From contig JAVXUO010002670.1 in assembly GCA_033065855.1 (NCBI GenBank), positions 62,001-126,000 on the forward strand: 64,000 nucleotides of DNA, written 5' to 3'. Shown in pieces: positions 31,201-61,445 of the stretch. The notes under the pieces were generated by a model. That model saw only the letters and a list, made by a program, of their open reading frames with translations. It was not told where the DNA came from and searched no databases. Both the position numbers and the translations under genes were made by a program. This DNA is from Escallonia rubra (Eukaryota; Streptophyta; Magnoliopsida; Escalloniales; Escalloniaceae). Position 1 is the first letter of the stretch. Every line of letters starts with the position of its first letter.

Positions 31201-31800
31201 TTTGAATCTTTTGCTTTTCCCCCCCTTTCTTCTCCCCCTTTTCCAAACTTCCACTTTTACCCCCCCAACAGCTATATAACGGCTAGTTTGGGGGGTATTT
31301 TAGTCTAACCTATATTTTTCAACTCCTTTACACTTTTACCCTCCCCAACAACTATAAACGGATAGTTTGTAGGGGTATTTTGGTCTTTTGTGAAGTTTCT
31401 AAAATCTATAAATTCACACCATTTCTCTCTAATTTTTCACACCAATCTTCTTACTCTCTTCTTATTCTCACAACAAGCTTTGCTACTATTTTCCTCTCCA
31501 ATTACTACTCTTGCTAATTACTACTAGTATTTACTAATTAGTACTCTTGTTTATTAATTACTAGTCTTGCTAAATTCTTTTTAGTTACTAACTCTCTAAT
31601 ATTTGTTACTCGTTCATTCTTTTAATTACTACTAGTATTTACTAATTAGTACTCTTGTTTATTAATTACTAGTCTTGCTAAATTCTTTTTAATTACTAAC
31701 TCTCTAATATTTGTTACTCGTTCATTCTTTTAATTGTTATTTCTTATTACTACTCTTATACTTGTGTATTTAGTTACTCTTACAAATTTTAGCGTGAAAT
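31201..31800 (+). promoter_or_regulatory. Leader of the hAT transposase gene with a 120-bp direct repeat
   Basis: AT-rich. The block TACTAGTATTTACTAATTAG through GTTACTCGTTCATTCTTTTA occurs twice in tandem (about 31521-31624 and 31628-31730), nearly identical. Upstream, two versions of CCCCAACA(G/A)CTATA.ACGG.TAG lie near 31263 and 31345. Candidate start at 31801 follows GCGTGAAAT. Confidence 0.5.
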
Positions 31801-34077
31801 ATGGCTGGAATATTGAAGAAAATGAGGCGTGTAACGTCATCACGAAAGAAATCATCATCATCGCAAGCACCACCACCAGCAGAAGCGCCAGCGCCACGGC
31901 CATCACAAACACCAATCCAAGCACCAACACAACCATTCGTTCGTGGACGAATGAGTACAGGCTCTATGATAGATACTCAAGCCAATTGGGAGTTCAATCA
32001 AAACATTCCAGATTTTGAATACACGCCTGATGAAGACCCCCCGCATTATAGTCAAGGACGCAGCTCGGTTGGCGAAGCTACTACTCAGTGGCATAATCTC
32101 AACCCTATGCCTGGTCATGATGAAGAAGGGCCGAGCAATGCCTCCGATAACGTGCCAGAAGTCCAGAAGGGGAAAAAGAAGAAAGCCGAGTGTTGGAATC
32201 ATTTCGACGTAGTTACGGTGGACGACACCCGAAAAGCTCGATGTAAGTACTGTCTTAAATTATTTTCGACTGGTAGTGGTAATGGACATCTTAACAGGCA
32301 TTACCCTCAGTGTGCACCTCGACAAGGCCACGTCGAACCTACCCAAACGCAGTTATCTTTTGACGGTAAGTTATTTGTTTATAATCAGCGAGAGCAAAGA
32401 GACGGTCTCGCTGAATTTGTTATTCATGATGAACAACCTTTTTCTTTTGCCGATAATCCTAAGTACTCTAGATATATGAACACATACGTCCAACCTTTGT
32501 ACAAAAAGGTTACTAGAAACACAACTAGATCCGATGCACTCCGACAGTACAAGGCTGCTAAAGCACGCCTTATCGATTATTTCGATAAATTTGACGGTAA
32601 AGTTAGTCTTACTTCTGATATTTGGCAATCTCCTTATACTTTTGTTAGTTATTCTTGTGTGACCGCTCATTGGATTGATGCAGATTGGGTTATGCACAAG
32701 AGAATCATCGCTTTCGAGCACTTCCCTTATCCGCACGATGGAATGAACATTGCTACTCTTATATTAAAAGCATGCAACACATTTAAAATTAAGGATAAGA
32801 TTATGAGTGTTAGTTTTGATAATGCTTCTAATAATAAAGCTGCTGTTGCAGCTTTAAAGGAGACGCTTCAACCTGTACTTCATGGTGAAGTATTTCATGT
32901 TCGTTGTGTTTGTCACATTATTAATTTAATTGTTCAAGATGGTTTAGCTGCTGCAGGAGATATTCTGCTCAAACTGAGGGGTATGACAGCGTATGTTAAT
33001 GGCTCGAGTTTGAGAACACAACAATTTAAAACGTTGTGTGTTCAATATAATATGCCTCGCAGGAGAGCAGTTACAGATGTGGTCCACAGGTGGAACTCTA
33101 CATACCACATGCTTTTACACATTCTGGCATACCGAGAAGTCTACACGCATTTTCTACTAACCCAGTTCCCAGCCGGCTTGCCAACTCAAGAGGAATGGCA
33201 GATGGCCACATACCTAGCTGAATTTTTAGAGGTATTCTACACGTCTACCAATTTATTGTCTGGTACGTACTATCCCACCTCTCCTCTCGCTGTAATAGAA
33301 ATTCTGAAGATGGCTACAATGTTAACAAAATGGAGATATATAGGACCCTTTAGGGAAATAGTACAAGTGATGGATCAAAAATTTAATAAATATTGGAGTA
33401 AACTGCCTGCTATTTTTACTGTGGCTACTTGTTTAGATCCTAGGTTAAAGTTGCATGGCGTGAACGCCTCGATACAAGAGATATCGAAATTAATGCACTA
33501 CACAGCAGAGGACACAACCTTGCTCACAGCAAAAGTGAGCAAGAGGTTTGAGGACTTGTTCAACCTCTATCGTAATTCTGCTGACGTGCGCGGGCGAGCT
33601 ACATCATCATCCACTGCTGAGAGGTATTATGCGCCATACCTTCAAGGCTTTGAACATCTAGTAGCAAGACAACTACCAGGTGAATGTACTTCTAATTCGG
33701 GAGGTTCGTATAATTTTTCCTCTTTTAATGAGATTGGTGTATATGCAAATACTGATCATTATTCTGATTTATCAAGGCAAGAACAGGTTAATTTTAATTT
33801 GTTAAATTTTTGGAAACAAAATCAAAACATGTATAAAACTTTATCCCAAATTGCACGGGATGTACTGCCAGTGCAAGCCTCCACGGTTGCTTCAGAGTCG
33901 GCATTTTCAGCAAGCGGGAGGGTTTTGGATGACAGGAGGAGTCGTCTTAACCCCGAGTCGCTCGAGCTATGTGTATGTTGGAAGGATTATCTTGATGCGA
34001 ATTACCGCGAGCAAGATAAACCGATTGATGATAGGAAGAGCAGTGACTCGGATATTGAAATACTTCCGGATGATTAG
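31801..34077 (+). CDS. hAT transposase with BED zinc finger (RICESLEEPER/Ac-like)
   Basis: Catalyses cut-and-paste of the surrounding element in the nucleus. 758 aa, the usual length. A basic, Pro/Ala/Ser-rich N-terminus is followed by a BED finger at about 124-172 (AECWNHF, CKYC at about 146-149, HLNRHYPQC), an alpha-helical region and the RNase-H-like core. Candidate catalytic acids are D272 (LTSDIW) and D340 (SFDNASNN). The C-terminal hAT dimerisation region at about 650-735 includes WKQNQNMYKTLSQIARDVL and ASTVASESAFSASGRVLDD, whose Glu is the likely third acid. No stop or frameshift. Domesticated hAT genes such as DAYSLEEPER lack element ends; here both TIRs and target repeats are present, so this is a transposon gene. 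Confidence 0.95.
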   Translation: MAGILKKMRRVTSSRKKSSSSQAPPPAEAPAPRPSQTPIQAPTQPFVRGRMSTGSMIDTQANWEFNQNIPDFEYTPDEDPPHYSQGRSSVGEATTQWHNLNPMPGHDEEGPSNASDNVPEVQKGKKKKAECWNHFDVVTVDDTRKARCKYCLKLFSTGSGNGHLNRHYPQCAPRQGHVEPTQTQLSFDGKLFVYNQREQRDGLAEFVIHDEQPFSFADNPKYSRYMNTYVQPLYKKVTRNTTRSDALRQYKAAKARLIDYFDKFDGKVSLTSDIWQSPYTFVSYSCVTAHWIDADWVMHKRIIAFEHFPYPHDGMNIATLILKACNTFKIKDKIMSVSFDNASNNKAAVAALKETLQPVLHGEVFHVRCVCHIINLIVQDGLAAAGDILLKLRGMTAYVNGSSLRTQQFKTLCVQYNMPRRRAVTDVVHRWNSTYHMLLHILAYREVYTHFLLTQFPAGLPTQEEWQMATYLAEFLEVFYTSTNLLSGTYYPTSPLAVIEILKMATMLTKWRYIGPFREIVQVMDQKFNKYWSKLPAIFTVATCLDPRLKLHGVNASIQEISKLMHYTAEDTTLLTAKVSKRFEDLFNLYRNSADVRGRATSSSTAERYYAPYLQGFEHLVARQLPGECTSNSGGSYNFSSFNEIGVYANTDHYSDLSRQEQVNFNLLNFWKQNQNMYKTLSQIARDVLPVQASTVASESAFSASGRVLDDRRSRLNPESLELCVCWKDYLDANYREQDKPIDDRKSSDSDIEILPDD

Positions 34078-35731: not shown

Positions 35732-38700
35732 TCAAGAGAGTGATACAGATTGAAAGCTGTTCGTTTCAATGGTGCGTGCACTTGAAGAATCTGCGGGAGA
35801 TTCCGGGGGGTAAACCAAGAAAGGCCTTGGGGGGATTTGCAAGGACTCCATGCTCCCTTCTAACATATCCAGCACATTTCTCATTGATGGCCTCGTTGTT
35901 GGATCACGCTGTATGCACCACAATCCAACAATTACCATCTTTAGTGCAGTTTCCTTTTCCTCTTCGTTCATGATGCCATGAAACTGAATTTCCTCATCTA
36001 TTTCAAGGCTATTGTATATCCACTGAGGAAAATATTTCTTGCTAGCATGGTCAACTTCTTCATCTGAATTCTTTCTCCCTCCCACCATTTCTAACAGCAT
36101 CATTCCGTAGCTGTAGACATCTGACTTGTCAGATACCCCTCCAAATGTTCTAGAAAATACTTCCGGAGCAATATATCCAGCCGTCCCTCTCATCCCCAAC
36201 ATTGATACTTCACTGTCTTTCCCCGGACATAGTTTAGCAAGCCCAAAGTCGGCGATTTTTGGGCAGAACTCTTCGCTTAGAAGAATGTTATGAGGCTTTA
36301 TGTCAAAGTGCAAAATCTGAGTGTTGCACCAGCGATGCAAGTAGTCTAGTCCTCGAGCAATGCCAAGTGAGATTTCGTACAATGTTTTCCACCCTAATTT
36401 ACGTTCTGTTGATGATTTTTCATTGTATATGAACTTATCCAAAGAGCCATTGGGCATGAACTCATAGATGAGTGCTTTCTTAGAACTGTCGGAACAAAAG
36501 CCCAGAAGAGTGACGATGTTAACATGGTTAGTCCTACCAATGCTAGCAACCTCGTTGGCAAATTCTTCTCCACTATCTTTCGGTCTATTCAATATCTTTA
36601 CTGCAACTGGACGGCCATCATGTAACTGTCCTTTGAATACACCCCCATATCCTCCTTGACTTAGCTTTTCTTTGAATGAGTGGGTCATTTTCTTAACATC
36701 AGAGTAACTGTATCTTGTTAGAGCAAGAGGCCTGTAATACTTTTGTAAGGACTCAATGTCTCCAATGTTTTTTGTTTTCTTTAACCAATTGATCATGGGT
36801 TCACATGATGTTGGCAGTAAAAGGGCTTTCTTGATAAGCAACTTCTTTATATGAAGGCTTAGCAAATGATAAGAGAATCTTTTCCAGACGCAGTAGAGTA
36901 AAACTGCTGTAATAACCACTCCAGTCAATAAAGTTCCTGCATAAAATGGAATGAGCCGACAGAGTCAAACAGATGTTAAAATCAGTTCGCTTTTGTCGTT
37001 TATATAATATTTTGGTAAGAATTTTTCTCAGTAACAAAATAAGGAGATCGCACAATGTATGTATCAACCGAAGGCAAGAGAATCCGCCCTTCAAAGGGCA
37101 GACAACAGCAATATTGCAGGCTAATATAAACACAAGCATGACCTGAATCACAACTTTCAAGGCTAACACTTGCTGAAGAATCATTAGCCCAAAATGTTGT
37201 GGTGAGAATGAATAATTGCTTAGTAGAGAGCCATGTTGGCAGTGGTTGAAGCTTAGCCTGGATCATAGCCTAAAAGGCCATATATGCTCTAATGCTTCAT
37301 TTCCTCACATAGTTATTAAAGTTCCCCTCTTATCTAACTGTTGACATTTGTGGAGGTAAGTATAATACCCGTGTTAATGTTGTAGTGTATAAACACAGAA
37401 AGAAGGAAGGAGAACTGGAGAACCCAAAGGGTTACATTGTAGAGTTGTGTATGTTGTGTGAATGATACAGATGTCTTAAATAGGCACACATACATGCGTG
37501 AATGCAGGTGGAAATGGTGAGCTATGGCTCACTTTTAGGGACAAGTAGGATGGCTAACATTGACCTTAACAGCCTCCCTCAAACTCGTGGAGGTTTGATG
37601 TGATCAAACAAGCTTGAGTTTGTATAACTGGCTGACGGCGTGAGGATGCCTGAAAGGATGACTTGATTTCTTGTAACCCATGCAAGCGTCACGCTAATAT
37701 ATCTTGTAGTTTAGGATGAGATCTTGCAACTCAATTGAGTGAGATTATGCATTTAACCCTATTTTATGGGGTATGATTTGCCGACCTATCTGTGCATAGA
37801 TTATGACAAATACCCCGGATAAGATCCGGTGAGCGGTGAGCCAAGAGAGCAGAGGTCTAGACACGAGACTCTAGGGTCTAAGGTGCAATCTGATAACCCA
37901 TTTTAGGTCTTGACAGAATAACCTGTGATCTATATCTAGATCAGGTGAGTCAAGAGAGCGGAGGTCCTGGCCTGTTACCTTATGATTTAGGATAAGATCG
38001 ATGAGCCTAGATAGCAGAGGTCTTGACTTGAGAACCCCGTGATCTGGGTATGATCTGGTGACCTATATATGCATGAGTCACGGTAGATACCCTGGACCTG
38101 GGTGAGGTCTAACAAAAACATGGAGCTAGTAGGGACCGAAAGTAGTTGACAGTTGAGTTCAGAGCCGAAAGTTAAACCCACTGCAGACATGTACCCTGAG
38201 AGTTGGCTTCCAATTGTTCTTATTAGACCTGGTCTGTGTAGACCGCACAGGAGCGACAAAGAACGGATATGGAATTCGAGTGGTTAGTTGCAATGCATAG
38301 AAGTTCTTGCAGTATCAATACTACAGAGGTTCTTCGCCAGTACTGGAAATGCGCTTTATGAATCATGTCCCATTGATTGGAGGTCATGAAGTCTTCAACT
38401 TGACCGAAAGCTGGTGGTGATGCATTAATGCTGAACACAGCGGTAGCAAATTTTGCTCACAAATAGTGCTGAATAATAAGCTATCAGTAGTGCTGTGTGA
38501 AACAGAGACGCCAAGGGATCGCGGTTTGATCTTGTTAAGTGTTACTCCCTCCGTCTCAAATTATTTAATTATATTTGACTTGCACGCTTATTAGAAAGAT
38601 TCATATTTTATGAGTTTCTCGCTGTCCCATGTTCCACAAGAGAGAAGGAGAGGAAGAAAGTAAGTTAGGAAAGAGAAAATTGCTTGTGATGATTAAATAT

Positions 38701-41700
38701 GCAAAGAGAAGTAGAATAAAAAATATATATAGAAAGGGTGAACATGAAAAAAAAAAAAACTATAGAATCTTTTTTAATTTGAAAAGTGTTCAATTTTTTA
38801 GGACAACTTAAAAAAGAAATATGATTAATTTTTTTGAACGGAGGGTTCAAAAGGTGGTAAACATAAGATTACTGTTTTTCGTCATTGCCAACTTAAAGTA
38901 ACTAGACAAAGGCTTGGACTTTGTGATACCCTTTGTTCTCATAATCTAAGCCTTCCTCGTGACAGCCATGGGAAATGGCAAACCAACCCTGATAAGGTTG
39001 ATAGCGTTTTTCTTCATTTCCTTATCTTTCTTTGACTTGTATAGCCTATTTGTAAGTTTTGAGATGAGAGAAAAGAAAAGAAAGAAAGAGAAGGGAAGAA
39101 AAGAGAAGGGATTTTCTTCCTCTTGTTTGTGAGTTTAAGAGATCGAGAAAAGAAAGCATCATTTTTCCTTGTTTGTTAGTTCAGCAAAAAAGAAAAGACA
39201 CCCGATTCCGTTATATAACATTATATTACATTGTGATAATTCTAACAAATACTATGATGAACGATTCTATAACAGGATTTTTACGGGAAAACAAATTAGT
39301 TGACAATGATATCATACAAATTTTATACCAAATTAATGTAATTAGCCTTATGCCAAAAGTAAAACAATCAGTCGTGAGTCAAATCTAACATCCAAAATAA
39401 TCATCTATTTCTAAGTAAAATAGTAAAATAGTAAGTTCTTGAAAGGAACCCTAAAACTTAAAAGTTATTTAAAGTTTAGTATTTATTATCACGAAGATAA
39501 TATGAACATTATTAAAAAACTCATCAATTTAAAAAAAAAGAACTCATAAAAGAACTCATAAAGAGGCTAGTACAGATGTACGCATACTATACTCTTGCTT
39601 CTCTCATCTGTCCCCGTCTCCAGACTTCTCTCTCTCTCTTCCTTCTTCAGTCTCTCGCTCCCCGAACAGTTATTGTCCAAGCTCTCTCTCCCCTTCTCAT
39701 TCAACGAATACAAGGTAGGAGTTGGATGAAGTGGAACATTAGCAAGTAAGGATGCCAAAGACTAAGGAGGTCCAGATCGGCGGCGGTAATAGAGACTTAG
39801 CCACAGGTCGTGCGACAGTTCACACCGACGATGGTCGTGAGGCGAGGCAGTAGCTATTGGCTTAATGATGGTGTCGAGATGGTCAAGGCTAGCAAGGGAG
39901 GCGAGGCAATGGAGGAGATGTAGCGGCTGTGGAGTTCGTGATTGCATTTTTCGTTGTAGAGAAAGAGCAGACACTGATGGGCTTTGGATCATTGAGTCAC
40001 TGGTCGATTCGGGTCGACTCGGTTGTGAATTGGCTCGAGTTCAGTGAGCTGACTTACTCAACACTGTCAGTGGTGAAAAATGTAAATCAATTGACTGAAT
40101 GAGGTGTATCTCACTGCTAAGATGAAGGGCAGTGATGAAAGGCAATTGACAGAATGAGGTGTTTCTCACTGATTCGAAGAGACAATTGGACAGTGGGAAA
40201 TGGGTTTGCCATTTCTAAGCAGCTACATCTGTGATTATGGAGAAAATGACGGCAACGGGTTGCCGACTTGCCATTGAAGAAGCGTAACGACGGATCGTGT
40301 ACGCTCTGATACTATGTTAAGATTTGTGAAGGAATGTATAATACCCGTGTTAATGTTGTTGCGTAGAAACACAGAAAGAAGGAAGGAGAACCAGAGAACT
40401 CAAAGGGGGGTTACATTGTAGAGTTGTGTGTATGATACAAGGTGCTTTAAATAGGCATACATACATATATCATATGTGAATGCACGCGGAAATGGTCAGC
40501 GATGGCTAGAACTGGCAAAATCTTACCCGGACTCGCGGGTTTATCCGAACCCATTCAGAAAATCCGGTTACGGGTTCTTATATAGGAAAATAGGCCCGTA
40601 CTCGAACTGAGCCGAAAATTTCGGCCCGGTCTGGGTCAGATACGGTTACCCGGACTACATTAGGGTTTTCATTTTCACTCTTCCTTCTCTCTCATTATCT
40701 CATCTGCTCTGCCCCTCTCCACCAGTTCCCCCCCTCTGAACTCTTTCTCAGGCAACCTTGCTGCCAAGGCTCTCTCTCTCTCCTCGTGTCTCTCAGTCAC
40801 TCATTCTCTCATCAGGGTCGCCCCTCTCTCCACCAGTTCCCTCCCCCCCCGCGTCACACACACACACACACAATTTCGCTTTCTCTGTGACTCATTCTCA
40901 CCCACCAGTCAGATCCACCGATGAACGCGCTACTCCATATCAACTCGACGTCGCCCATCGTCCCTTTCACGCTCGCTCACAGGTTCGCCTCAGATCCGCC
41001 ACCATTATCCCCGATCAGGAAATATAGTTATTACAAAGTTACAACCAGAGAAAGTGAGCTCCGATGGTGGTCTCCAGTCGATTTTGAGAGTTGAAACACT
41101 GTAGCTGGAGCAGCGGAGCTAGCGAATATAATTTTTTGTTAAACCAGATAATTCTTTGTTCATATGTACTCTCTTTTTGTTTTTTTGGTTAATTTTTTAC
41201 TACTTTAGACTTAGTAATTGATTTTCAGGTGATTTTCTGGGATTTTGAAGATATGTATGTGCTTTATTGTGTTGAGTTGAGATGATTGGGTTAGAATTGA
41301 GATGATCCTTAACAAGGCCAAGGTTGGAGCAGCTTTGCTGTTTGTCCGCCTCTCTTTTAACTTTTTCTTTTTCCTCTTGAATATGCCACCCTTAGTCTAA
41401 TTTCAAAATGATAAAGAAAAAAAATGAAAACAAATTTGCCAAGTGATAGTTGTAGTAATAAAAAAAAAAGGCGAAAAGAATACTCCAAAAGAAAGTATAG
41501 AATAAAAAATTCAAAATTATAATTATTTACCTACGAGTAATACCCGACCCACCTGGGTAAGATACTGGCATTAAAAAACACTACCCGAAAAAAATTAGGT
41601 AAAATTTACCCGATCCGTTTTACCCAGAATCAATCGAATTTTATCTATACACGACGGGTCAACTCGTTTACCAGGTCTAGCTATGGCTCAGTCTTAGGAA

Positions 41701-44616
41701 CAAGTAAGGTGGGTGGCTACACTTAGGTAGCGTTTTTATTTTCAGTTTTTGTTCAGTATTAATAACTGAAAAGAAAAATATGTTTGACAGACAATTTACG
41801 TTTTTTTCCCTTCAGTTTTGTGAACCCGTTTTTAAAATGGAGCTATTTTTTAAAACTCCAATGTGGTGTTTTCAGTTTTTGTTTTTATTTTAAGATCCAT
41901 CTTTCAACCTTTATTAGAAGCAAATTAAACTAGACAAAGTTTTTCCCAACTCCATTTAATCATTCAACAGCCACCACTACACTGCAACACAACATGTAGC
42001 CTCTATCTACCACTGCCGCCACCAGTGGCCCACCACCCAACCCCAAAACCTCCATAACGATTTTCATATCGTCATCCTTAACTATTTTCACATCAAATTT
42101 TTTTTATTATAACAAATTAACATACTAGAAATTCAGTGATACCAATCATCACCACCAAATATATTGTGCCACCACCACAACTTCCGCCGCTGCCTGGATC
42201 ACCATACACCACCACCACCGTCTTGACCACCAAGCACCACCACCGCAATTGTCGCCGCCTTAACCACTATATATGACCACCACCCGAATACAAATATCAA
42301 CGTCGACACCGTTGATTTCCACCGCCGTCAATCTCACGACTCCCGACTATCCACGGTTTACTTCTAGCAAATATCCCGTCGACACCTTTAATCTCCGGAT
42401 CTGTAGCTTAGTTTTCATGTGCTTTTGACGGTAGGTCGTGATGGGTGGTGGTTCGTGGCTACGGGTGGCGGCCATGGTTATACTGGGACGTGTTGGTGTT
42501 TGGTTGGTGATAATAAAGATTTCTTTATCTATTGGGAAAGAATGAGAATATAAAGGAAAAACAAATGCTCTCTTGAAACAAAAACCGGTAACAAAAACTT
42601 GTGTACCAAACATTCACTCTTTTAAAAAAAAAAAAATCATAACTTAAATTTTTGTTTTTGTTTTTTAAAAAGTCAAAACGAAAAACAAAAAGATTATCAA
42701 ACATATCCTAAAAGATTATCAAACATATCCTAAGAGTGTAACATTAGTCAAGTAAACTCATCAAAAAAATTATATTCCTCTGACAATGAAGGCCATAATT
42801 AAGTCAGAAAAAGACATGCCTAAAGTGGAGAAGCCTATACGAAATGTTCTTTCTTGTTTGACATAGGCTGCTCCTTCATTATGCAGTTTTGCTTTGAACA
42901 CTCTTTCTTCTCCAACACTAGCATGCTTGGGAAACGGCCTTACTGTTCCTTTAGCTCAGATGTGCCTTTCATGAGAAACTCACCACTTAAGTTATTGACC
43001 AAAATTTAGGTATTAGATCTAACGGTGTAACTTGAATGGGTTGGATTGGTTTTTACCCAACCCAAAAAAACCGATACGCCTAAAAAGTCCAACGAGCTTT
43101 AACCCAAGAAAGATTGAATAAATTGGGTTGAGTTGGGTTGGATTAGTGAGCTTTTTTGGGTTTCAATGGGTCAATCAATTTAAAATAAATATGTTTTATA
43201 TTTTAAAAAAAAGTGGAATGGTGGTGGTCGGTGATGGCGGTAGCCGTTGAGGTGGTGGCTGCCGGCGGTGGCGGACGGCGCGCGGTGGTTGGCGACGGCC
43301 GACAGTGGTGGCCGGCGACGGCTGCTACCGGCGATAGTGGTGCCGGCCGGCGATACTGGTAGTTATTCTACAGTGTGACCTTTTATCAAATGGGTTTTAA
43401 AAGCCCAATCCGAATAACCCATTATTATATAAGCTTAACCCATTCTAACCCAATTTATATTTAGGTGGGTTGGGTAAAAATTCAAAAAAAAAAAAATTTG
43501 ATTGGGCTGGTTAAAATCATAAAACTCAACTCAAAGTCGCAGCCTTAATTAGATCATTACCATATCCATTCCCTATTGGGATGTAAGTAGCTAACTTTAA
43601 ATGATCTAACCAAATTGTCAGATTAGAGAAGTTTCCAAACTAGCAAAAGGGGGACAAGTTGATAGACACCTGTTATTTTTCTTTAGCTGAGTGATGGAAG
43701 AAGCAAAAGATGACCATAGAACAAAAACGAGATATAGCAAGTGATGCTAGAGCTATTAAGAACGAGAATAATTTTGCCCTACCAGTGAGATTTTATCTTA
43801 AAAGATAATCTGTTAAGCATAGTTCTTTGTTAGCTTTAAGCTTTTATCAGAATAGTCAGTAACTTAACGTGGTATCAGAGTAACCACTCTGTTTATTTCT
43901 GCACTTGTGGTGTTGAGGGGGAATATTAAGCATGAAGCATCGTCACATTGTTGAGCTCATTCTTTTACAGCTTAAACTCATTCTTTTACAGCTAATGATA
44001 ACTTAAAACTCATTCTAATATAGTTTAAACTTAATAACTTAAAACCTGTTGCAAATAAAACTGAGTTGAGAGATGTAATACCCGGTATTAGGATGGGTCT
44101 CAACTTCTTTTTTCCTTTCACTTCATCAGCTGAGGCATAAGAGTCAAGCAAGTTTCATAAATTCGACAGTCCATATAAGATCAGAGTTTATATGAAGACA
44201 AAATAAAAGTCTGGATGGAGGGTTGGTACAAAAGCAGCAGCATATAAAGATCAGCCAGTACCTTCCGCGGCATATGCACATGACTGATACTCGTACCTAT
44301 CATCTAGATACTGGCTATTCAGGTGATCCTGGAACACTTGATAACGAATTACGACGGTGCTATCAGGCTGTGAAATGCGTACAACATCGTACCATCGCTC
44401 CTTGTCTTTGAGCTGAATTTTTGGTACTGGTCCGTTGCAGTTTAACATGCACCGGCCGCACTGCGGATCAGTGGTGTTGTGAAAGGGAAAGGTGAGAGAG
44501 CCGAGGCCGTTGCAGTAGAAGTACGTTGGACATACAGATTTGGATCTCTTCCATCCTTGAATTGAAGGAAGAAGCACAAGGTGAAGCAGAATCAAGGAAA
44601 GAGAACTTTTAGCCAT
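35732..44616 (-). CDS. LRK10L/Lr10-type receptor-like kinase with shortened ectodomain (RLK2)
   Basis: Two-exon model by homology to RLK3: exon 1 is 44262-44616, exon 2 is 35732-36936. Exon 1 encodes a signal peptide (MAKSSLSLILLHLVLLPSIQ), then the GUB_WAK start (CPTYFYCNGLGSLTFPFH, CGRCMLNCNGPVPKIQL), and jumps from DHLNSQ to YLDDRYEYQS. Relative to RLK3 exactly 435 bp (145 codons) are gone, in frame. The donor GAAG/GTACTGG and the exon 2 acceptor TGCAG/GAACTTTA are both phase 1, so the joined frame is open: 519 aa. Exon 2 has the TM helix TLLTGVVITAVLLYCVW and kinase motifs VAVKIL, HFDIKPHN (non-RD), DFG and APE. The first glycine of the nucleotide loop is Ser (LSQGGYGG, residue 211). The intron is 7.3 kb and filled with transposons. 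Whether the shortened receptor is made is unknown. Confidence 0.78.
38545..38845. mobile_element. Stowaway-like MITE
   Basis: The left end is TA/CTCCCTCCGTCTCAAATTA and the right end reads GAACGGAGGG, the inverted counterpart. This is the classic Stowaway (Tc1/mariner) terminus, about 300 bp, AT-rich and non-coding. It sits inside the LTR element at 37339-41721. Confidence 0.8.
40507..41679. mobile_element. Non-autonomous hAT-like element nested in an LTR
   Basis: Ends TAGAACTGGCAAA and, inverted, TAGACCTGGTAAA. 8-bp flanks GCGATGGC / GCTATGGC, and the intact LTR copy at 37519 reads GCTATGGC once, so that is the empty site. Subterminal regions are rich in ACCCG/CGGGT motifs. The interior has pyrimidine-rich and CACACA sequence and no transposase. 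Confidence 0.75.
41722..42732. mobile_element. Probable TIR element, unclassified
   Basis: Begins CTTAGGTAGCGTTTTTAT and ends in the inverted form of CTTAGGATATGTTTGATA. The interior holds CCACCACC-rich stretches. The last 48 bp contain two tandem copies of AAGATTATCAAACATATCCT. It lies directly against the LTR element, and no target duplication was found, so class is uncertain. Confidence 0.5.
43020..43547. mobile_element. hAT-like MITE
   Basis: A perfect 8-bp target repeat ATTAGATC lies at 43012-43019 and 43548-43555. Ends TAACGGTGTAACTTGAATGG and, inverted, TAAGGCTGCGACTTTGAGTT. Subterminal AACCCAACC motifs. The GC-rich middle (GGTGGTGGCCGGCGACGG-like) has no gene. The uninterrupted paralogous site is at 59484-59491 beside RLK3, read on the opposite strand. 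Confidence 0.85.
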
Positions 44617-45202: not shown

Positions 45203-48200
45203 GGGGGGGGGGGGGTTTGGTGTTTGACAACTTGACTTCGTTTTACACATTAGCTCCATAGAGTGGTGGGACAAATTGCGTCTTAGTAAAGTAATGTGAC
45301 AATGCACCTTGAAACTCATCTTGTCTCACTATTTTCGGTCTTCCGAGGCCATCAAGAACATCCGGACACCAACACTTGCCTCAAAGAATGATCAATTTTA
45401 AAATGCCATTTGTATAGGACAATGCTAGAGATCCCATTTGTCTTTTTACCTAAACTGTGTTATGATGTCAGACTTATTTGATTTGTATTTCTTAACCCAC
45501 TTTTTTCAAATTGATTGGAACGAGCTACCATTGTCCTTAATTTTAATGCTGCACGCGGTTGGAAGTTGGAACACATTTCAAAGGGAGAGGTTTCTTTCCC
45601 AGCTTCCTAGCAGCGTTTGACTGACTCGTGCTATTGACTCCTTCAAGTCAATGCATGGTTTTAGTAATGGTTGTGGTGGGTCTATGAGGGCTACTGATTG
45701 CCAACTGCCACTTTGGCTCTGAGTGACCCTCGGGTCTTGTTGTGTGAAGTTAAAATTATTTCGTGACATAAAAAAATGGTTTCAAGGTACGTTATAACGT
45801 TTTCTTTAATTTTATAGTTACCAATATCAGAAATGGTATGTAGTGAGTTACCAGTAAATACTCTCTAAGATACTGGATAACGGAGCAACTTTCTTGTTCC
45901 TTCTATGTCATCACATGGAGGTTTGTTCGGTGCAATCGGTCAATTGTCGAGTTTGATTAATAACGATAAATACATTTTCAAAATAAGAAATGTGTAACAT
46001 AACCTTCAAATTCTTGAAGACTTATCAAATGTACATGGTTTCACTTTGAGTCACCCTTAGTAAATCGGATTATTTATTTTAAAGACATATTTGGTATTTT
46101 ACTCTTTTATGTAATTCTTGTACATCTCTAATTCATTGTCTAAGCGGTAAATTTTTTTTGGCAGATATGATTGAATTCTTAGAAACCTCAAGAAGATTTT
46201 AAAACTGAGTAACATTGCGCTTTGAGATCGCTGAAGTTATGTTTTAAATGAATCTCACTTTACCATAAGCTTTGCTGTTAGTTTAGTAGTTTGCACCAAT
46301 CTTTAGTAATTTGCTTCAGTTTTCACCATTGTGCAGTGTGATCATGCACACTGCATGTTGCTGCTAAAAATATGCTCCGCGCAAATTCCGGAACCAGAGC
46401 CTTGACCGGTGACATGCAAGACAGAAAACGAGTGACCGCCGGGTGGGGTTCCCAGCGGAGAACTCTCCGATGCTTAAGTCAGAGCGCAGCTATAGAATAA
46501 TCACTCTGAAAAAGCATGAATTGTGTAATTGTCCTCATACCTGGGGGGTAGACCCCTTTATATAGCTGTAGGAGGAGAGTCCTAGTAGGGCTGGGCCGTG
46601 GGCCAGATATGTTAGGATCGCGTTAGGATCCTTGAGGATCACGTCACAATCTCTAAAAACTCTTTTAGAATTCTGATAAAAAATCTCTCAGTGTGACTGG
46701 GATTCGCCGGGTGTCCCCCAATTATTGGGAGTTATATTTGAATTATATATCATAAGCCCCCCCACTTTCTTAGCCAAAATGTTTGGCTGAGGAAGTTTAT
46801 ACCTAGTGTCTTGAGACACGCGTCAGATTTATAAGGGATTCTCCATCCCCTTATAGGGGTAATAATATTTCTCTTCTACATGTGCTCCGACCTAAGCTCT
46901 TGGGAGCTTAAGCCTTGGGACTTTGCCCAAGTAGGGTGCTAGAAGCCTAGCTCTCAAGAGCTAAGTCTTAGAATGTCGCCTGAGTAGGCTATTCAGAATC
47001 ATCTTTGGGAAGACGAATCATGGGATCTCGAGATCCTTTAGAGGCTGTGCCCAATGGTAGCCTAACACAAAGCTGTGCATGCAAGTTGTTGTATGTGCTA
47101 AGTATTTGAATGTTCCCTCGAGGGGTCACCTCTCCTTTGGAGGGTGTTCATTTTGTGCAAGTGTGTGTTGTTTAGCTCGAGCTGACCACATCATGCTTGC
47201 GTTTTACTTTGTTGCGAACTCTTATCATCAGCTGAGAGTTGGCAAAGAAGTCTCCCACTCAGCTATGTTATTTTAGCTCCCACTCAGCTATCTAAAATTG
47301 TTTGCTGGTTGTGTGTATAGGTAACTAAACTTGTGACCCCTACACTGCTGATATGAAACACATGCATTGGTTGGAAGCTCAAATCATGTCGTGATCTAGG
47401 CTCATATGACAAGTAGTTTTTCTACATTATACGAGACATAGCCATTTTTGTAAAGGTTGTCGGTTTTGAATCTCAGTTCATTCTATACTTAGAAAAGTTG
47501 CTCCACTTTCTCCACATGTCAAAACAAAACATGCTCAGGAAACAATTTTGGCTTATGTAATGAGGAATGTCCGTGTGTAAACTTAGATTGACACTCTAAA
47601 CAAGAAAATTGCAAGCATGCAGCTAATACTATGAAATTAAGTCCCCAATTCTATGGAGTGAAATTTGAAATATGTACACTATAATCAATTGACATCAAAT
47701 ATATAATCAGATTGCTAACTGAAAGTAAGTTGGCATCAAGTATAAAACATCGGTTTTCTAATAGGTATCCATGTACATGTAAGAAATAGTAAGAGAATTA
47801 AAAGTACCTTCAGTTGAGCCTAAATAGTTTGAAGCCCTGCTTTCAACGGATCCCAAATACACCAACGTATTTTCCCTTATCAAGCGATACCACAAAAGAA
47901 CCTAACATCATAACTGAAATAAGACTGAAAACGACAAAGAGAAAATAATAAAACACAAATATACTTGAGTACAAGGGTCAGGCCGTCGACCTAAGACTAA
48001 TTATAGCCTGGCTAGCTGCTATTTTTGCCAATCCATGCCTAACACATCAACGCCCTAATGCACACCCACAATATAACAAATGCCACACACATCATTCCCA
48101 GCTGATTTTCCCCTCTCCCTTACACATCTACACACACCAAAAATTCACGCACTCCCGCTGCCACTAGGGCAGCCCATTCGGCAGCCCTTTCTCACACCCA

Positions 48201-48539
48201 CATCATCATTGCACCCTCACATCTCACACATAAAACACCATGCACTTGCTACCTCACGACAGCTTCCCTTCACCCATCAACACCCCGCAAATATACATAC
48301 AATCACCCAAACACTCACACAGTACACAGCAGGTCCCCACTTTCCCCTTACACACACACACACTAACACAGCAGCAGTACCCCCTCATTGCTGTTGTTTT
48401 CCCCATTCCTTTTAACCCCTTTCACAAACAAAACACCACAAACACACCTCACACAATACTTCCCTACGACATACCCCTTTCCCCCTCGGTTTACACCACT
48501 ACACACGCACAAACACCCGCATAGCATCACCTTTTGCAA
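45203..48539. repeat. Direct duplication, unit A
   Basis: From the G-run at 45203-45215 to CATCACCTTTTGCAA (48539) this segment recurs at 48552-53049. Unit A contains about 340 bp (near 45735-46070) and a 900-bp LTR-like block (46356-47250) absent from unit B. Its left part (45240-45775) also matches 57030-57530 inverted. No confident gene. The frame at 48080-48415 is Pro/His/Thr-rich in low-complexity DNA and is not convincing as coding. Confidence 0.85.
46356..47250 (-). mobile_element. Probable solo LTR (fossil) in unit A
   Basis: Read on the minus strand it has a TATA box (GCTATATAAAGG, about 46557-46568), a downstream leader and an end at TTTTTAGCAGCAACA. It is absent from unit B at the corresponding place. 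The right boundary is approximate and no target repeat was found. Confidence 0.5.
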
Positions 48540-48736
48540 CAGCAATGTGAGAGGGGGGGGGGGCTGGTTTGGTGTTTGACAATATGACTTCGTTTTACAC
48601 ATTAGCTCCATATAATGGTGGGACAAATTGCGTCTTAGTAAAGTAATGTGACAATGAACCTTGAAACTCATCTTGTCTCACTATTTTCTTTCGAGGCCAA
48701 CAAGAACATCCGGACACCAACACTTGCCTCAAAGAA

Positions 48737-49956
48737 GGGTAAATTTTACGCTACACCCTGTACTTAGGGGTCAGTTGCAAAATTGGCACCCAGCACCAAA
48801 ATTTTAAAAATCTTGGTTTTCGGCACCAAATGACAGTCAATATGACCTTTGACCAAATGTCTGTTACGTTTTTAGGGACAAAATTGTCAGTTTGCTTATT
48901 GTGTCCAAGGTATCATCCCTGTGGCGTCTACATGGTGTCCATGTGGCATCTATGTGCCATCCAATTCAATCAGATAAAGCCCAATATAATCGCAGACCAA
49001 AACTCAACCACCGTCGGCAGACCAAGATCAACGCCGCAACCCCACCAAACCACTGTCAATGCCACCATTTGTAAACACCACCAAACCATGGTCAACGCAA
49101 CATCACACTCATCAACACCATTCCCTAATCGCACCCACACACACACACACTAATACCACCGTTAAACATCAGATCAAACAAATTAGATAGAAATTTCATG
49201 ATTAAAAACCAAAACTTTCAGCTGTTGACCCAAGGAGCAGTAGACGTGGCTTTCTCCGTTCAAGATTCTGGTGCTACTGACTCAAATCCGGTACGCAGAT
49301 GAAGAAAAGGGGATCGGGGACTCAGATATGTGGTAGCAACTTTGCTGGCGACGAATTCCGTAGCTGTGGATTTGGATCTGCTAGTTATTTGTAGGTTTGG
49401 TGAGGGGCTTACGGATGGCACCGCAAGGATAGTGGGCGGTGGCTGGTTGGTGGGGAAAATTGAAATGGCTTAATGGTGGATGGTGGGGTGGTCAGATATA
49501 GTGGATGGGTGTGATCCGTCGGCGCGTGGGTTGGCAGTGGGTTTTCATGCGGGATGGAGGTGGGATTTGTAGGTTGGTTGCCGTGGAGGGTTTGCTTGCA
49601 AGTCAGGTGGTGACAAGGCTTTGTAAATTGGTGGTATCGGTAAGGGTAATGGTAGAAACGAGTGGGTTGGTGAGGGTGAGGGTGGGGGAAGAAGATAATC
49701 TGGTGGGTCCAAATGGAGAGATCGACTGAGGATTTGACTACGTGGAAATGACATGGACACCATGTCATTTATAAAGGGCAACGAGACTATTTTGCCCCTA
49801 AAAAATTAACAGACGTTTGGTCAAAGGTCATATTGACCATCATTTGGTGCCGGAAACCAAGATTTTTAAAATTTTGGTGTTGGGTGCCAATTTTAAAATC
49901 CTAGGGTGCTGGGTGCAACTGACCCCTAAGTACAGGGTGTAACGTAAAATTAACCC
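48737..49956. mobile_element. MULE-like TIR element (element 5)
   Basis: Perfect 9-bp target repeat CTCAAAGAA (48728-48736 and 49957-49965). Unit A has the site once, uninterrupted, at 45380-45388. Ends GGGTAAATTTTACGCTACAC and the inverted GGGTTAATTTTACGTTACAC; homology extends about 130 bp inward. The interior has Thr/Pro/His-rich frames and probably captured sequence whose donor I do not recognise. Confidence 0.9.
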
Positions 49957-50071
49957 CTCAAAGAATGATCAATTTTAAAATGCCATTTGTATAGGACAAT
50001 GCTAGAGATCCCATTAGTCTTTTTACCTAAACTGTGTTGTGATGTCAGACTTATTTGGCTTGTATTTCTTA

Positions 50072-51194
50072 AGGTTAATTACACTTATGTCCCTGAGGTT
50101 TGGATGAAATTACAGTCAATGACACTAAGTTTCAAAAGCTAACAAACCGTGACCACGAACGTTAAAAAGGTAATACTTGTGTCCTTCCGTCAAGTATCCG
50201 TCCAAAAAATATTTGTTTTATGATTTCATCAATACATATTTTTAAAATGACAATCTTACCCTTGTATTACCCTTCTATATCTTCCCTTTACAATTTCATC
50301 CCTTTCTTCTCCAAATCTTCTCCCACGCCGCTGCCCCCACCCTCCTACCATCTGGCTGCCATCACCACCCTCCACCACTCCGCCGACGGGCCCACCCTCC
50401 ACCACCCAGTCGCCATTCATCTCCAATCAGAATCCTTATCCCACAACTCTCAGAAACCCCTCATTTACAAATTTAATATCTACTCAAAAATTGTTAGGCA
50501 ATGGCCTTCCTGGTGACGCCTTTCCTCAAATCCCTCACACCTGAATCGACACCCCAAACTGAATCCAACTTGAACAGCAGAGCCATTAGAGTCTCGTTGA
50601 TCTGAACCCCCACCTTCGGGTCCTTTTGAATCAACTCAAGAGATCCAGATCGAAATGACGAAGGTGGAGCACATGTTGGTGTTTTTCGACCGGCAGTCCA
50701 GTGGGGAGAACAGGGGGACTAGCGGCGGCGATATAGAGTTGTTGGGAGGCAGCGACGGTGGGTCCTTACCTGAGTTTCGCATCTGGGGTGGTGCCGGTGG
50801 TACACTTTGAGGGAGCTGGAGGTCGCCACCAATGGGCATGGGATTGTAGGCAACAGGCTGGGCCATTGAGGCACCTATGACGGGGTAATGACGTGAGGGC
50901 TGGTTATGGTGGGTTTTGAATAAGGGATCCATCGTGGTTTGATGCTTCAAACAAACTGCAATAAAATGTTATGTTGAAGAAGATTCTGAAATCCTAATAT
51001 GAAAATTAGGGAGATGGTAGGAGTGGCATGACAAAGAAATTACCTTTCGAATCATGGGCAAAAAGGTCATTTTGATCATTCTGTTATGTATTTGGGTAGT
51101 CCGTTAGGTCAAAGGACATAAGTGCCTATTTTCCAAACTTATGGACACGCGTGTAGTTTCACCCAAACCTTAGGGACATGAGTGTAATTAACCC
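50072..51194. mobile_element. MULE-like TIR element (element 6)
   Basis: Perfect 9-bp target repeat TATTTCTTA (50063-50071 and 51195-51203). Unit A has the empty site at 45486-45494. Ends AGGTTAATTACACTTATGTC and the inverted GGGTTAATTACACTCATGTC. The interior has a minus frame (50636-50950) with a Pro/Gln-rich stretch (MDPLFKTHHNQPSRHYPVIG) that looks like a captured N-terminal exon of an unidentified protein. Confidence 0.9.
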
Positions 51195-51670
51195 TATTTC
51201 TTAACCCACTTTTTTCAAATTGATTGGAACTAGCTACCATTGTCCTTAATTTTAATGCTGCACGCGATTGGAACAAATTTCAAAGGGAGAGGTTTCTTTC
51301 CTAGCTTCCTAGCAGCAGTTGAATGACTCGTGCTATTGGCTCCTTCAAGTCAATGCATGGTTTTAGTAATGGTTGTGGTGGGTCTCTGAGGCTGCTGATT
51401 GCCAACTGCCACTTAGCCTTAGTAAATCGGATTATTTATTTTAAAGACATATTTGGTATTTTACTCTTTTATGTAATTCTTGTACATCTCTAATTCATTG
51501 TCTAAGCGGTAAATTGTTTTTGGCAGATATGATTGAATACCTATAAACCTCAAGAAGATTTTAAAACTGAGTAACATTGCGCTTTGAGATCGCTGAAGTT
51601 ATGTTTTAAAGAAATCTCACTTTACCATAAGCTTTGTTGTTAGTTTAGTAGTTTGCACCAATCTTTAGTA

Positions 51671-51740
51671 ATTTGCTTCAGTTTTCACCATTGTGCAGTG
51701 TGATAATGCACACTGCACAATGGTGAAAACTGAAGCAAAT
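51671..51740. repeat. Perfect palindrome, 32-bp arms, 6-bp spacer
   Basis: Arm 1 starts ATTTGCTTCAGTTTTCACCA (51671-51702), the spacer is ATAATG, and arm 2 (51709-51740) is the exact reverse complement. The homologous place in unit A has only 8-bp arms (46333-46340 and 46347-46354). Confidence 0.95.
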
Positions 51741-53049
51741 GCTCCCACTCAGCTATGTTATTTTAGCTCCAACTCAGCTATCTAAAACTGTTTGCTGGCT
51801 GTGTGTATAGGTAGCTAAACTTGTGACCTCTACACTGCTGATATGAAACACATGCATTGATTGGAAGCTCAAATCATGTCGTGATCTAGGCTCACATGAC
51901 AAGTAGTTTTCCTATATTATACATGACATATATAGCCATTTTTGTAAAGGTTGTCGGTTTTAAATCTCAGTTCATTCTATACTTAGAAAAGTTGCTCCAT
52001 TTTCTCCACATGTCAAAACAAAACATGCTCAGGAACAATTTTGGCTTATGTAATGAGGAATGTCCGTGTAAATTTAGATTGACACTCTAAGCGAGAAAAT
52101 TGCAAGCATGCAGCTAATACTTTGAAATTAAGTCGCCAATTCTATGGAGTGAAATTTGAAATATGTGCACTATAATCAATTGACATCAAATATCAATAAT
52201 CATATTGCTAACTGAAAGTAAGTTGGCATCAAGTATAAAACATCGGTTTTCTAATGGGTATCCATGTACATGTAAGAAATAGTAAGAGAATTAAAAGTAC
52301 CTTTAGTTGAGCCTAAATAGTTTGAAGCCCCGCTTTCAACGGATCCCAAATACACCAACGTATTTTCCCTTATCAAGCGCTGCCACAAAAGAACCTAACA
52401 TCATAACTGAAATAAGACTGAAAACGACAAAGAGAAAATAATAACACACAAATATACTTGAGTACAAGGGTCAGGCCGTCGACCTAAGACTAATTATAGC
52501 CTGACCAGCTGCTATTTTTGCCAATCCATGCCTAACACATCAACGCCTTCATGCACACCCACAATATATCAAATGGCACAACATCATTCCCAGCTGATTT
52601 TCCCCTCTCCCTTACACATCTACACACACCAAAAATTCACGCACTCCCGCCGCCACTAGGGCAGCCTATTCGGCAGCCCCTTCTCACACCCACATCATCA
52701 TTCCACCCTCACATCTCACACATAAAACACCATGCACTTGCTGCCTCACGGCAGCTTCCCTTCACCCATCAACAGCCCGCAAATATACATACAATCACCC
52801 AAACACTCACGCAGTACATAGCAGGTTCCCCCCTTTCCCCTTACACACACAACACACTTTATATGTCCAAGCACACACACACTAACATAGCAGTAGCACC
52901 CCCTCATTGCTATTGTTTTCCCCTTTCCTTTTAACCCCTTTCACACAAACAAAACACCTCACACAATACTTCCCTACGACATTCCCCCTTCCCATTCCGT
53001 TTTCACCTCTACACACGCACAAACACCCGCATAGCATCACCTTTTGCAA

Positions 53050-58082: not shown

Positions 58083-61000
58083 ATGGCTAAAAACTCTCTT
58101 CTCTTGATCATCTCCATGGTGCTTCACCTTGTGCTTCTTCCTTCGGTTCAAGGGTGGAAGAAATCGAAAACTGTATGTCCGCCGTCTTTCCACTGCAACG
58201 GCCTCGGCTCTCTCACCTTCCCCTTTCACAACACCACTGATCCGCAGTGTGGTCTGTGCAAGTTAAACTGCAACGGACCAGTACCAAAAATCCAGCTCAA
58301 AGACAAGGACCGATGGTACGACGTTGTGCGCATTTCGCAGCCTGATAACACCGTCGTAATTCGTGATCAAGATTTCCAGGATCACCTGAATAGCCAAAGC
58401 TGCAATTTCTGGAGTTACGATCTTCCCTCCACTCGCTCCATTTCATTTACAGTCCTCTCCAACATCACCTTGTTCATGTGTCCAAATAGTCCAGAACTTA
58501 CTCAACGAACAGATGATCATTTTGGTAAGCAATCGGGTCGTTATTTGAGTTACAAAAACTGCAGGGACAAAAATATCTACTACAAAGATCCCTCGGCTCC
58601 ACCTCCAGCTGTAGACAAATATTCGAGGGAATATAACTCCTATGGATTCTCCAGCTCCAGGGACAGGGAATATCCAGACTATTGTCGCGCTACCAAGGGA
58701 CTGCCGGTACTGCCTGACATGCCTTTAAATGGCACACATGTGCCTGATTTGTTTAGCATGTTAACTGCCAAATTCTCTGTTGGATTGCGTGTATCGGATG
58801 GGTGTCTTGTGTGTAGATTTTATGGAGGCCAATGTCTAGATGATAGATACGAGTATCAGTCATGTGTATATGCCGGGGAAGGTACTGGCCAATCTTTACA
58901 TGCTGCAGCTTTTGCACCAATCCCCAATCCAGACTTGTATTAAGCATGCATAAAACTCTGATCTTATGAAAGTTGCTTGGTTCTTATGCCTCAGCTGATG
59001 CAGTGGAAGGAAAAAAGAAGTTGAGACTCATCTTAATACCGGGTATTACATTTCTCCACTCATTTTTGTTGCAAGAGGTTTTAAGTTACTATCTGCTCTA
59101 AAAGTTTAAGTTATTTAAGAATGGGCTCAACAATGTGATTATGCTTGATGTTTAACACTCCCCCTCAATACTACAAGTGCACAAATAAACTAAATGTCAA
59201 TTGCTCTGATGCCATGTTAAGTTACCAACTGTTCTAATAAAAGCTTAAGGCTAACAAAGAATGATGCTTAACAGATTATCTTGTGAGATGATATCTCAAT
59301 GGTTGGGCAAAGTTATTCTCGTTCTTAATAGCTCATGCATCACTTGCTATATCTAGTTTTTGTTCAGTGGTGATCTTTTTCTTCTTCCACCTTTTGCTAC
59401 TTTGGTAACTTCTCTAGTATGACAATTTGGGTTAGATCGTTTAAAGTTAGCTACTAACATCCCAATGGGGAATGGATGGTAATGATCTAACACCTATATT
59501 TTGTTCCGTAACTTCCATGCTTTAAAATATAGGGTATGAAATTGGTGAGTTTTCATGAAAGGCACATCTGAGCTAAAGGAACAATAAGGTTTTTAATTTC
59601 TCAAGCATGCCAGTGTTTGGAAAGAAAGAGAGTGTTATAAGCAAAATATCATGATGGAAGGAACAGCCTAAGTCAAAACAAGAAAGCACAATTCGTATAG
59701 ACTTCTCCTCTTATGGCATGTCTTTTTCTGACTTATGTCATGTCCTTTAGTGTCAGAGGAATATGATTTTTTGACGAGTGTACTTGTCTAATGCCACACT
59801 TCAGGAGATGCTGCATTTAAAATAGAGGATCTGATGGATATGGATTAGTTTGTTAGAAAAGAGGGAAACTTTGCTGACTAGGTGAGGAATGAAACATCAA
59901 AGCATATAAGGCCTTTTCGGCTATGATCCATGCCAATCTTCAACCACTGCCAACATGGCTCTCTACTGAGCAATTATTCATTTCTCAGCACATCATTTCG
60001 GGGCCAAGGATTCTTCAACATGTATTAGCCTTGAAAGTTGTGATTAAGATCATGTCTGTGTTTCATTAGCCTGGTCTGTATTTCATTAGCCTGCAGAATC
60101 TCTTGCCTTCGCGTGATGCATATATTGGGTGATCTCCTTATTTTCTAACTGATGAAACTTCCTACCAAAATACTGTATACCCAAAACATGCGAAATGGTT
60201 TTAACATCAGTTTGATTCTGTCATCTCATCCAATTTACTGCAGGAACTTTATTGACTGGAGTGGTTATTACAGTGGTTTTACTCTACTGCGTCTGGAAAA
60301 GATTCTCTTATCATTTGCTAAGTCTTCATATGAAGATGCTTATCAAGAGAGCCCTTTTACTGCCAACGATATGTAAACCTATGATCAATTGGTTAAACAA
60401 AACAAGAGATGTTGAAGACATTGAGTCCTTACAAAAGTATTATAGGCCTCTTGCTCTAAAGAGATACAGATACTCTGATGTTAAGAAAATGACCAACTCA
60501 TTCAAAGACAAGCTAGGTCAAGGAGGATATGGGGGTGTATTCAAAGGACAGTTACATGATGGCCGTCCAGTTGCAGTAAAGATATTGAATAGACCAAAAG
60601 ATAGTGAAGAAGAATTTGCCAACGAGGTTGCTAGCATTGGTAGGACTAACCATGTGAACATCGTCACTCTCCTGGGCTTTTGTTCCGACAGTTCCAAGAA
60701 AGCTCTCATCTATGAGTTCATGCCTAATGGCTCTTTGGACAAGTTCATATATAATGAAAAATCATCAACAGAACGTAAATTAGGGTGGAAAGCATTGTAC
60801 GAAATCTCACTTGGCATTGCTCGAGGACTAGAGTACTTGCATCGTTGGTGCAGCACTCAGATATTGCACTTTGACATAAAGCCTCATAACATTCTTCTAA
60901 GTGAAGACTTCTGTCCCAAGATCGTCGACTTTGGGCTCGCTAAACTCTGTCCTCGAAAAGACAGTGAAGTATCAATGTTGGGTATGAGAGGGACGGTTGG

Positions 61001-61445
61001 ATATATTGCTCCGGAAGTATTTTCTAGAATATTTGGAGGGGTATCTCACAAATCAGATGTCTACAGCTACGGAATGATGCTATTAGAAATGGTGGGAGGG
61101 AGAAAGAATTCTGATGAAAATGTCGATCATGCTAGCAAGAAATATTTTCCTGAGTGGATATACAATCGCCTTGAAATAGAGGAGGAAATTCAGTTTCCTG
61201 GTATCATGAACGAAGAGGAAAAGGAAAATGCATTAAAGATGGTAATTGTTGGATTGTGGTGCATACAGAGTGATCCAACAAAGAGGCCATCAATAAGAAA
61301 TGCGCTGGATATGTTAGAAGGGAGCCTGGAGTCCTTGCAAATCCCACCAAGGCCTTTCTTGGTTTACCCCCCGGAATCTCCAGCAGATTCTTCAAGTGCA
61401 TGCACCATTGAAACAAGCAGTTTTCAATCTGTATCGCTGTCTTGA
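58083..61445 (+). CDS. LRK10L/Lr10-type receptor-like kinase, complete two-exon gene (RLK3)
   Basis: Plasma-membrane receptor kinase with a wall-facing ectodomain. Exon 1 is 58083-58881 and exon 2 is 60244-61445, joined across GAAG/GTACTGG and CTGCAG/GAACTTTA, both phase 1: 666 aa. Signal peptide about 1-26 (MAKNSLLLIISMVLHLVLLP); GUB_WAK-type cysteine cluster at about 32-63 (CPPSFHCNGLG, CGLCKLNC); several N-glycosylation sites (NTT, NIT, NGT); WAK_assoc end GCLVCRFYGGQC; TM helix LLTGVVITVVLLYCVW; non-RD kinase with glycine loop G358-G363 (GQGGYG), K379, HFDIKPHN (H475, D477), DFG from 495, then APE. If exon 1 is not spliced, the same frame reads on to a stop at 58943 and would give a 286-aa secreted protein. 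The intron is 1.36 kb. This is the reference copy for RLK1, RLK2 and RLK4. Confidence 0.9.
58882..60243 (+). other. RLK3 intron
   Basis: Starts GGTACTGG and ends TTTACTGCAG. 59267-59770 and 59900-60240 match, inverted, the parts of the RLK2 intron that are not transposons (about 42740-44100 and 36937-37330). It is therefore the uninterrupted form of that intron. Confidence 0.7.

Follow-up and report, generated by a model that had tools for sequence, protein, structure and literature searches.

The 64,000-nucleotide stretch of Escallonia rubra DNA analyzed here (the window) carries two closely related receptor-like kinase genes, RLK2 and RLK3, of which RLK2 encodes a much shorter ectodomain. 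How this difference arose, and whether the shorter protein could still act as a receptor, is the question raised by the locus. The gene models compared were:

44262 to 44616, minus strand: RLK2 exon 1, 355 bp, phase 1, with a putative signal peptide, a GUB_WAK_bind-like region and 16 residues of the former C-terminal ectodomain.
36937 to 44261, minus strand: RLK2 intron, 7325 bp, GT donor and AG acceptor.
35732 to 36936, minus strand: RLK2 exon 2, encoding the transmembrane segment, the juxtamembrane region and the protein kinase; the stop codon ends at 35732.
58083 to 58881, plus strand: RLK3 exon 1, 799 bp, phase 1, encoding the full ectodomain; the reference for comparison.
60244 to 61445, plus strand: RLK3 exon 2, encoding the transmembrane segment and the kinase.

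The donor AAG/GTACTG and the acceptor GCAG/GAAC were present in RLK2 and RLK3 alike, and the spliced models, both with a phase-1 intron, encode 519 (RLK2) and 666 (RLK3) amino acids. The RLK2 model of the initial annotation, with its coordinates, phase 1 and 519-residue product, was borne out by the sequence check, the splice signals and the translation. The difference of 147 residues is made up of 145 lost by deletion plus three in the signal peptide, minus one for a codon present only in exon 2 of RLK2. Hydropathy was maximal at residues 1-19 of RLK2 (1.66) and 6-24 of RLK3 (2.09), so that both signal peptides, read from hydropathy, are putative; a maximum at residue 117 of RLK2 (1.84) corresponds to the transmembrane segment. 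According to the gene model, RLK2 would be spliced across 7325 bp, and an intron of this length may hamper splicing.

The RLK2 intron contains about 5.4 kb of extra sequence (37339-42723) where RLK3 has 41 bp. This sequence includes an 80% direct repeat (37339-37529 and 40315-40507) and possibly derives from an old LTR-type insertion. Were the introns retained, the RLK3 frame would remain open for about 20 codons beyond the donor (58882-58943) before reaching a stop, giving a soluble ectodomain of 286 amino acids, and RLK2 would meet a stop almost directly after the donor, giving 121 amino acids.

RLK2 exon 1 aligned to RLK3 exon 1 with a single long gap, defined by two features:

44312 to 44315, minus strand: RLK2 deletion junction (GCCA), with a net 435 bp missing relative to RLK3; the meeting point in the self-comparison.
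58397 to 58831 (or an equivalent placement), plus strand: RLK3 segment missing from RLK2, 435 bp or 145 codons, residues about 106-250, with six cysteines.

In RLK3 the motif GCCA occurs at 58393-58396 and 58828-58831, spaced 435 bp apart. In RLK2 the motif is present once, at the junction, where the left flank of the first RLK3 motif is fused to the right flank of the second. This confirmed on the sequence that 145 codons between the motifs are gone with frame and splice phase kept, as first proposed. The figure of 435 bp holds for the deletion itself; exon 1 as a whole differs by 444 bp, which includes a 9-bp (three-codon) indel in the signal peptide.

Two further genes in the window were used for comparison:

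62348 to 63040, plus strand: RLK4 ectodomain exon, which covers what RLK2 lacks as far as about RLK3 residue 247.
2144 to 3258, plus strand: RLK1 kinase exon, about 60% identical, the outgroup for the kinase comparison.

RLK4 was 41.6% identical to residues 4-247 of RLK3 (E=3.9e-49). Since RLK4 holds the segment, RLK2 has lost it, which upholds the direction given in the initial annotation, and an insertion in RLK3 was rejected. In the self-comparison, RLK2 and RLK3 lie in opposite orientation and their homology begins about 1 kb before the start codon and ends 16 bp beyond the stop codon, indicating an inverted duplication. The two genes differ at 9% of the aligned exon 1 bases and are about 90% identical from the transmembrane segment through the kinase. 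Their dS was 0.26 in the retained exon 1, somewhat above that of exon 2 (0.17). Gene conversion between the kinase exons was unsupported, the exon 2 value being near the non-coding divergence of 0.14-0.20.

A gap of this kind could also reflect a local misassembly, or a haplotype whose full-length allele exists elsewhere, and the comparison draws on one assembly. However, the ends of the deletion, with 5 bp in common in RLK3, offer no long repeat that would cause collapse, and with exon 1 of the two genes differing by 9% long reads could hardly be confused; an artefact is therefore highly improbable.

Other rearrangements were seen in the window. Between RLK2 and RLK3 (45203-53049) lie direct duplications of 92-97% identity, for example 47252-48539 and 51742-53049, and the sequence found upstream of the RLK genes recurs there at 51195-51414. 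About 100 bp downstream of RLK1 (3797-3904) match the RLK2 and RLK3 upstream regions at about 77% and are possibly a promoter relic of another family member. An unbroken reading frame of 759 amino acids (31798-34077) presumably encodes a hAT-type transposase. In RLK4, the ectodomain can be aligned with that of RLK3 as far as about 63037, and the frame stops at 63070. The opposite-strand frame at 63257-63838 we take to be a Ty1/copia-like RNase H, and RLK4 may have been interrupted by an LTR retrotransposon close to where the deletion of RLK2 ends. Five stretches fitted the pattern of RLK3 kinase exon relatives in viral contigs, and none of them was confirmed.

The deletion ends in RLK3 share 5 bp (GCCAA). 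Among 100,000 random deletions drawn in the exon, microhomology of at least 4 bp was found in 1.7% and of at least 5 bp in 0.6%; among the 363 possible 435-bp deletions tried there, the counts were 11 and 6, respectively. These frequencies lend modest support to microhomology-mediated end joining, by which a break in the RLK2 ectodomain exon would probably have been closed with a net loss of 435 bp, by chance a multiple of three. The two bases that differ just 3' of GCCA (CAA TGT in RLK3, CAG TAT in RLK2) belong to a junction that a 438-bp deletion with a 3-bp filler would fit equally well. One of these two changes places a tyrosine codon in RLK2 opposite cysteine 251 of RLK3, and its direction is one that we infer, because RLK4 does not cover this position. 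Retention of the frame by one deletion is in itself weak evidence, since a multiple of three arises by chance in about a third of cases or fewer; it was found in 12 of the 57 gaps of the non-coding RLK2/RLK3 comparison.

The consequences for the receptor depend on which part of the ectodomain was removed. The GUB_WAK_bind family (PF13947) matched residues 29-90 of RLK2 over profile positions 1-62 of 64 with 24.4 bits (E 3.7e-5), under the cutoff of 29.4 bits, and the first 102 amino acids queried separately gave 24.9 bits. RLK3 also scored below this cutoff, with 25.5 bits for residues 32-94 of its ectodomain and 28.7 bits for its N-terminal part by itself. A Pfam query of RLK3 including the read-through tail returned no family at E<=1, which places the GUB_WAK_bind match at the edge of detection, and three Pfam searches of RLK4 gave no match to this family. 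The deletion begins at about RLK3 residue 106, C-terminal to the matching stretch, and reaches residue 250 or so, taking out most of the region of RLK3 (about 187-263) in which the C-terminal part weakly matched WAK_assoc (PF14380; 15.3 bits, cutoff 27). Pfam gave no WAK_assoc match in RLK2, in the whole RLK3 ectodomain query or in RLK4. No EGF family was among the Pfam matches of the RLK2 or RLK3 ectodomains, which sets both apart from WAKs proper. The RLK3 ectodomain contains 13 cysteines and that of RLK2 six; six of those missing lie in the deleted segment and one corresponds to the tyrosine of RLK2.

The ectodomain had been described initially as a stub. It is indeed shortened, but the term is too strong, because the deletion starts past the GUB_WAK_bind-matching stretch, which survives with 24.4 bits. 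With cleavage assumed near residue 21, the mature ectodomain would comprise about 97 residues and appears better described as GUB-only; the predicted product is closer to a WAKL-like receptor of this kind than to a bare stub. If spliced and expressed, it would still have the putative signal peptide and the GUB_WAK_bind-like module, followed by the transmembrane segment and the kinase; of the C-terminal half of the ectodomain, which is WAK_assoc-like, almost everything would be missing. Most likely RLK2 cannot perceive the ligand of RLK3 and would be a loss- or change-of-perception copy. Searches for solved relatives of the ectodomain returned only two matches, with E values of 1.6 and 2, which we attribute to chance, and structure predictions from three-sequence alignments had mean pLDDT values of 37.7 and 51.1, too poor for use, including for disulfide pairing; loss of a binding site is thus argued from the missing sequence and not from structure. 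Ligand binding could nevertheless survive, because a review (PMC11588464) ascribes pectin binding in WAKs to the GUB region.

RLK2 exon 2 matched the protein kinase family (PF00069, 156.3 bits), RLK3 also had a Pfam kinase match, and the best solved matches to the RLK2 kinase were SymRK and BAK1. RLK2 retains VAVK, HFDIKPHN, DFG and APE, which we take to be the corresponding kinase motifs. The non-RD sequence HFDIKPHN is found in both RLK2 and RLK3 and the RD motif is absent; on this motif we presume that both belong to the LRK10L-2 subfamily. Residue 211 of RLK2, the first P-loop glycine, is serine, and the residue is glycine in RLK3, in RLK1 and in the best three of the 138 solved kinases matched. 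Serine at this position could lower ATP affinity; a literature search for serine replacing the first P-loop glycine found no report.

The similarity of the two kinases bears on a possible interference with RLK3. As a dominant-negative or decoy partner, the decoy being one of the forms suggested in the initial annotation, RLK2 would pair with RLK3 via the transmembrane and kinase parts without perceiving a ligand. The identity of about 90% in these parts speaks for this, and co-expression is possible because the upstream regions are homologous. However, the loss of the membrane-proximal ectodomain does not in itself make a decoy, and we consider such a role quite unlikely.

Whether RLK2 remained under constraint was determined from gaps and from codon substitutions. 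Four non-coding RLK2/RLK3 comparisons (2224 aligned bases) contained 57 gaps, 45 of which were not multiples of three, and the coding comparison (1557 aligned bases) had no stop and no net frame change. The gaps in exon 1 were aligned as 4, 5, 19 and 416 bp, lengths not divisible by three, and were counted as two events because the aligner splits both the 9-bp indel and the 435-bp deletion in two; exon 2 had one 3-bp gap. The downstream stretch 61446-62000 (48 gaps) was excluded from the gap rate because homology ends 16 bp beyond the stop codon. With half of the gaps assumed for each branch, about 16 frame-breaking gaps were expected on a neutral RLK2 branch (P ~1e-7), and the gap count allows at most about 19% of the branch to have been unconstrained at the 5% level.

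A three-taxon codon model was applied to 369 kinase and 101 retained-ectodomain codons. The initial annotation had proposed a selection test on the RLK2 kinase exon; in this test omega on the RLK2 branch was 0.195, and a value of 1 was rejected (p=0.016). This omega did not differ from the 0.504 of the RLK3 kinase (p=0.41), and neither RLK3 value was distinguishable from 1 (kinase 0.504, p=0.55; ectodomain 0.151, p=0.21). Pairwise omega between RLK2 and RLK3 was 0.27 overall (bootstrap 0.18-0.40) and 0.21 in the kinase domain (0.12-0.36). For the retained ectodomain of RLK2, omega was 0.685, separable neither from 1 (p=0.78) nor from the 0.151 of RLK3 (p=0.42). On the RLK2 branch, the ratio of nonsynonymous to synonymous changes was 11:4 in the retained ectodomain and 15:14 in the kinase exon, with no significant difference between the two (Fisher p=0.21); the RLK3 counts, 5:6 and 16:8, did not differ from those of RLK2 in either the ectodomain (p=0.23) or the kinase exon (p=0.40), changes unassignable to a branch (17 in the kinase exon, 7 in the ectodomain) having been dropped. 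The selection tests had low power, the outgroups being near saturation (dS 1.1-1.6). As far as can be read from the sequence, these results indicate that RLK2 was a working gene with a constrained frame for most of its history. The signal belongs to the whole branch and possibly predates the deletion, since the deletion cannot be placed on the branch.

This last point weighs against the reading that selection has preserved the shortened protein as a working GUB-only receptor of WAKL type, either ligand-independent or changed in specificity, forms akin to the constitutive and altered-specificity products suggested in the initial annotation. The conserved frame and kinase, the intact GUB-like stretch and the six remaining ectodomain cysteines, an even number, agree with it, as do the annotated WAKLs with GUB and kinase but no EGF, described as common in PMC12911021 and PMC11588464. 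On the other hand, up to about 19% of the branch may have been unconstrained, omega of the retained ectodomain is compatible with neutrality, and serine occupies the first P-loop glycine, so that we regard maintained function as unlikely. It appears improbable that RLK2 is an expressed, selection-kept GUB-only form that signals without the ligand of RLK3 or tunes RLK3, with the P-loop serine adjusting kinase activity.

The same data can be read as those of a nascent pseudogene, in which a recent deletion and the enlarged intron ended function too recently for frameshifts to accumulate. Kinase constraint is compatible with a long functional past, the point estimate for the retained ectodomain is closer to neutral than that of the kinase, and the 5.4 kb of extra intron sequence and the P-loop serine point the same way, as does a cucumber CsLRK10L2 deletion allele that its authors judged loss-of-function (PMC7649820). 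Neither a stop nor a net frameshift was found in the 1557 aligned coding bases, and the 11:4 and 15:14 counts do not differ significantly; we hold this reading tentatively, as possible.

The explanation that we prefer, at a probability of roughly 0.55, is that RLK2 is an end-joining deletion copy, changed or lost in perception, arising from ordinary birth-and-death variation. RLK2 and RLK3 would derive by inverted duplication from a single non-RD receptor-kinase gene of the LRK10L-2/WAKL type, in a cluster that would show normal birth-and-death turnover. The nascent pseudogene is a stricter form of this explanation and the functional alternatives share its structure, so that the readings overlap and are not mutually exclusive. 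If the deleted RLK2 is expressed and maintained, the pair, homologous in the upstream regions, about 90% identical in the kinase parts and with half of the ectodomain absent in RLK2, would be a natural experiment on the role of the WAK_assoc-like ectodomain half; if not, it would be one more case of birth and death in a receptor-kinase cluster.

Loss or change of the ectodomain is known in LRK10L and WAKL relatives, and the RLK2 event is therefore not new in kind; its in-frame, paralogue version is a new instance, and no report of an in-frame ectodomain deletion of this type was found in the open-access literature searched. In tomato, no recognised ectodomain is reported for LRK10L-2 members (PMC3552996). 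Arabidopsis LRK10L1 is LRK10-like and has more than one form, transcripts 1.1 and 1.2, which come from two promoters and not from a genomic deletion (PMC12479429). In strawberry, the susceptible allele of LRK10A (FaRCa1) carries a 26-bp deletion and a premature stop (PMC11899574), a frame-ending allele in contrast to the paralogue RLK2. Among annotated WAKLs, in Phaseolus (PMC12911021) and in a review (PMC11588464), the combination of GUB_WAK_bind and kinase without an EGF domain is common, and both sources count WAK_assoc as an auxiliary domain. RLK2 shares with these EGF-less WAKLs a putative signal peptide, an N-terminal GUB_WAK_bind region, a transmembrane segment and a kinase, and differs in that its GUB match is under the Pfam cutoff and its architecture comes from a visible deletion of a longer form. 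A further parallel, cucumber CsLRK10L2 (DM4.1.2), has a kinase reported without the RD motif and a published 551-bp deletion allele; in N. benthamiana the long allele caused necrosis and the deletion allele none (PMC7649820). RLK2 resembles it in its presumed LRK10L2-type non-RD kinase, putatively galacturonan-binding and WAK-associated ectodomain, tandem partner gene and intragenic deletion, but the cucumber deletion is a within-species allele of 551 bp, not a multiple of three, whereas RLK2 is a diverged paralogue whose 435-bp loss keeps the frame (PMC7649820).
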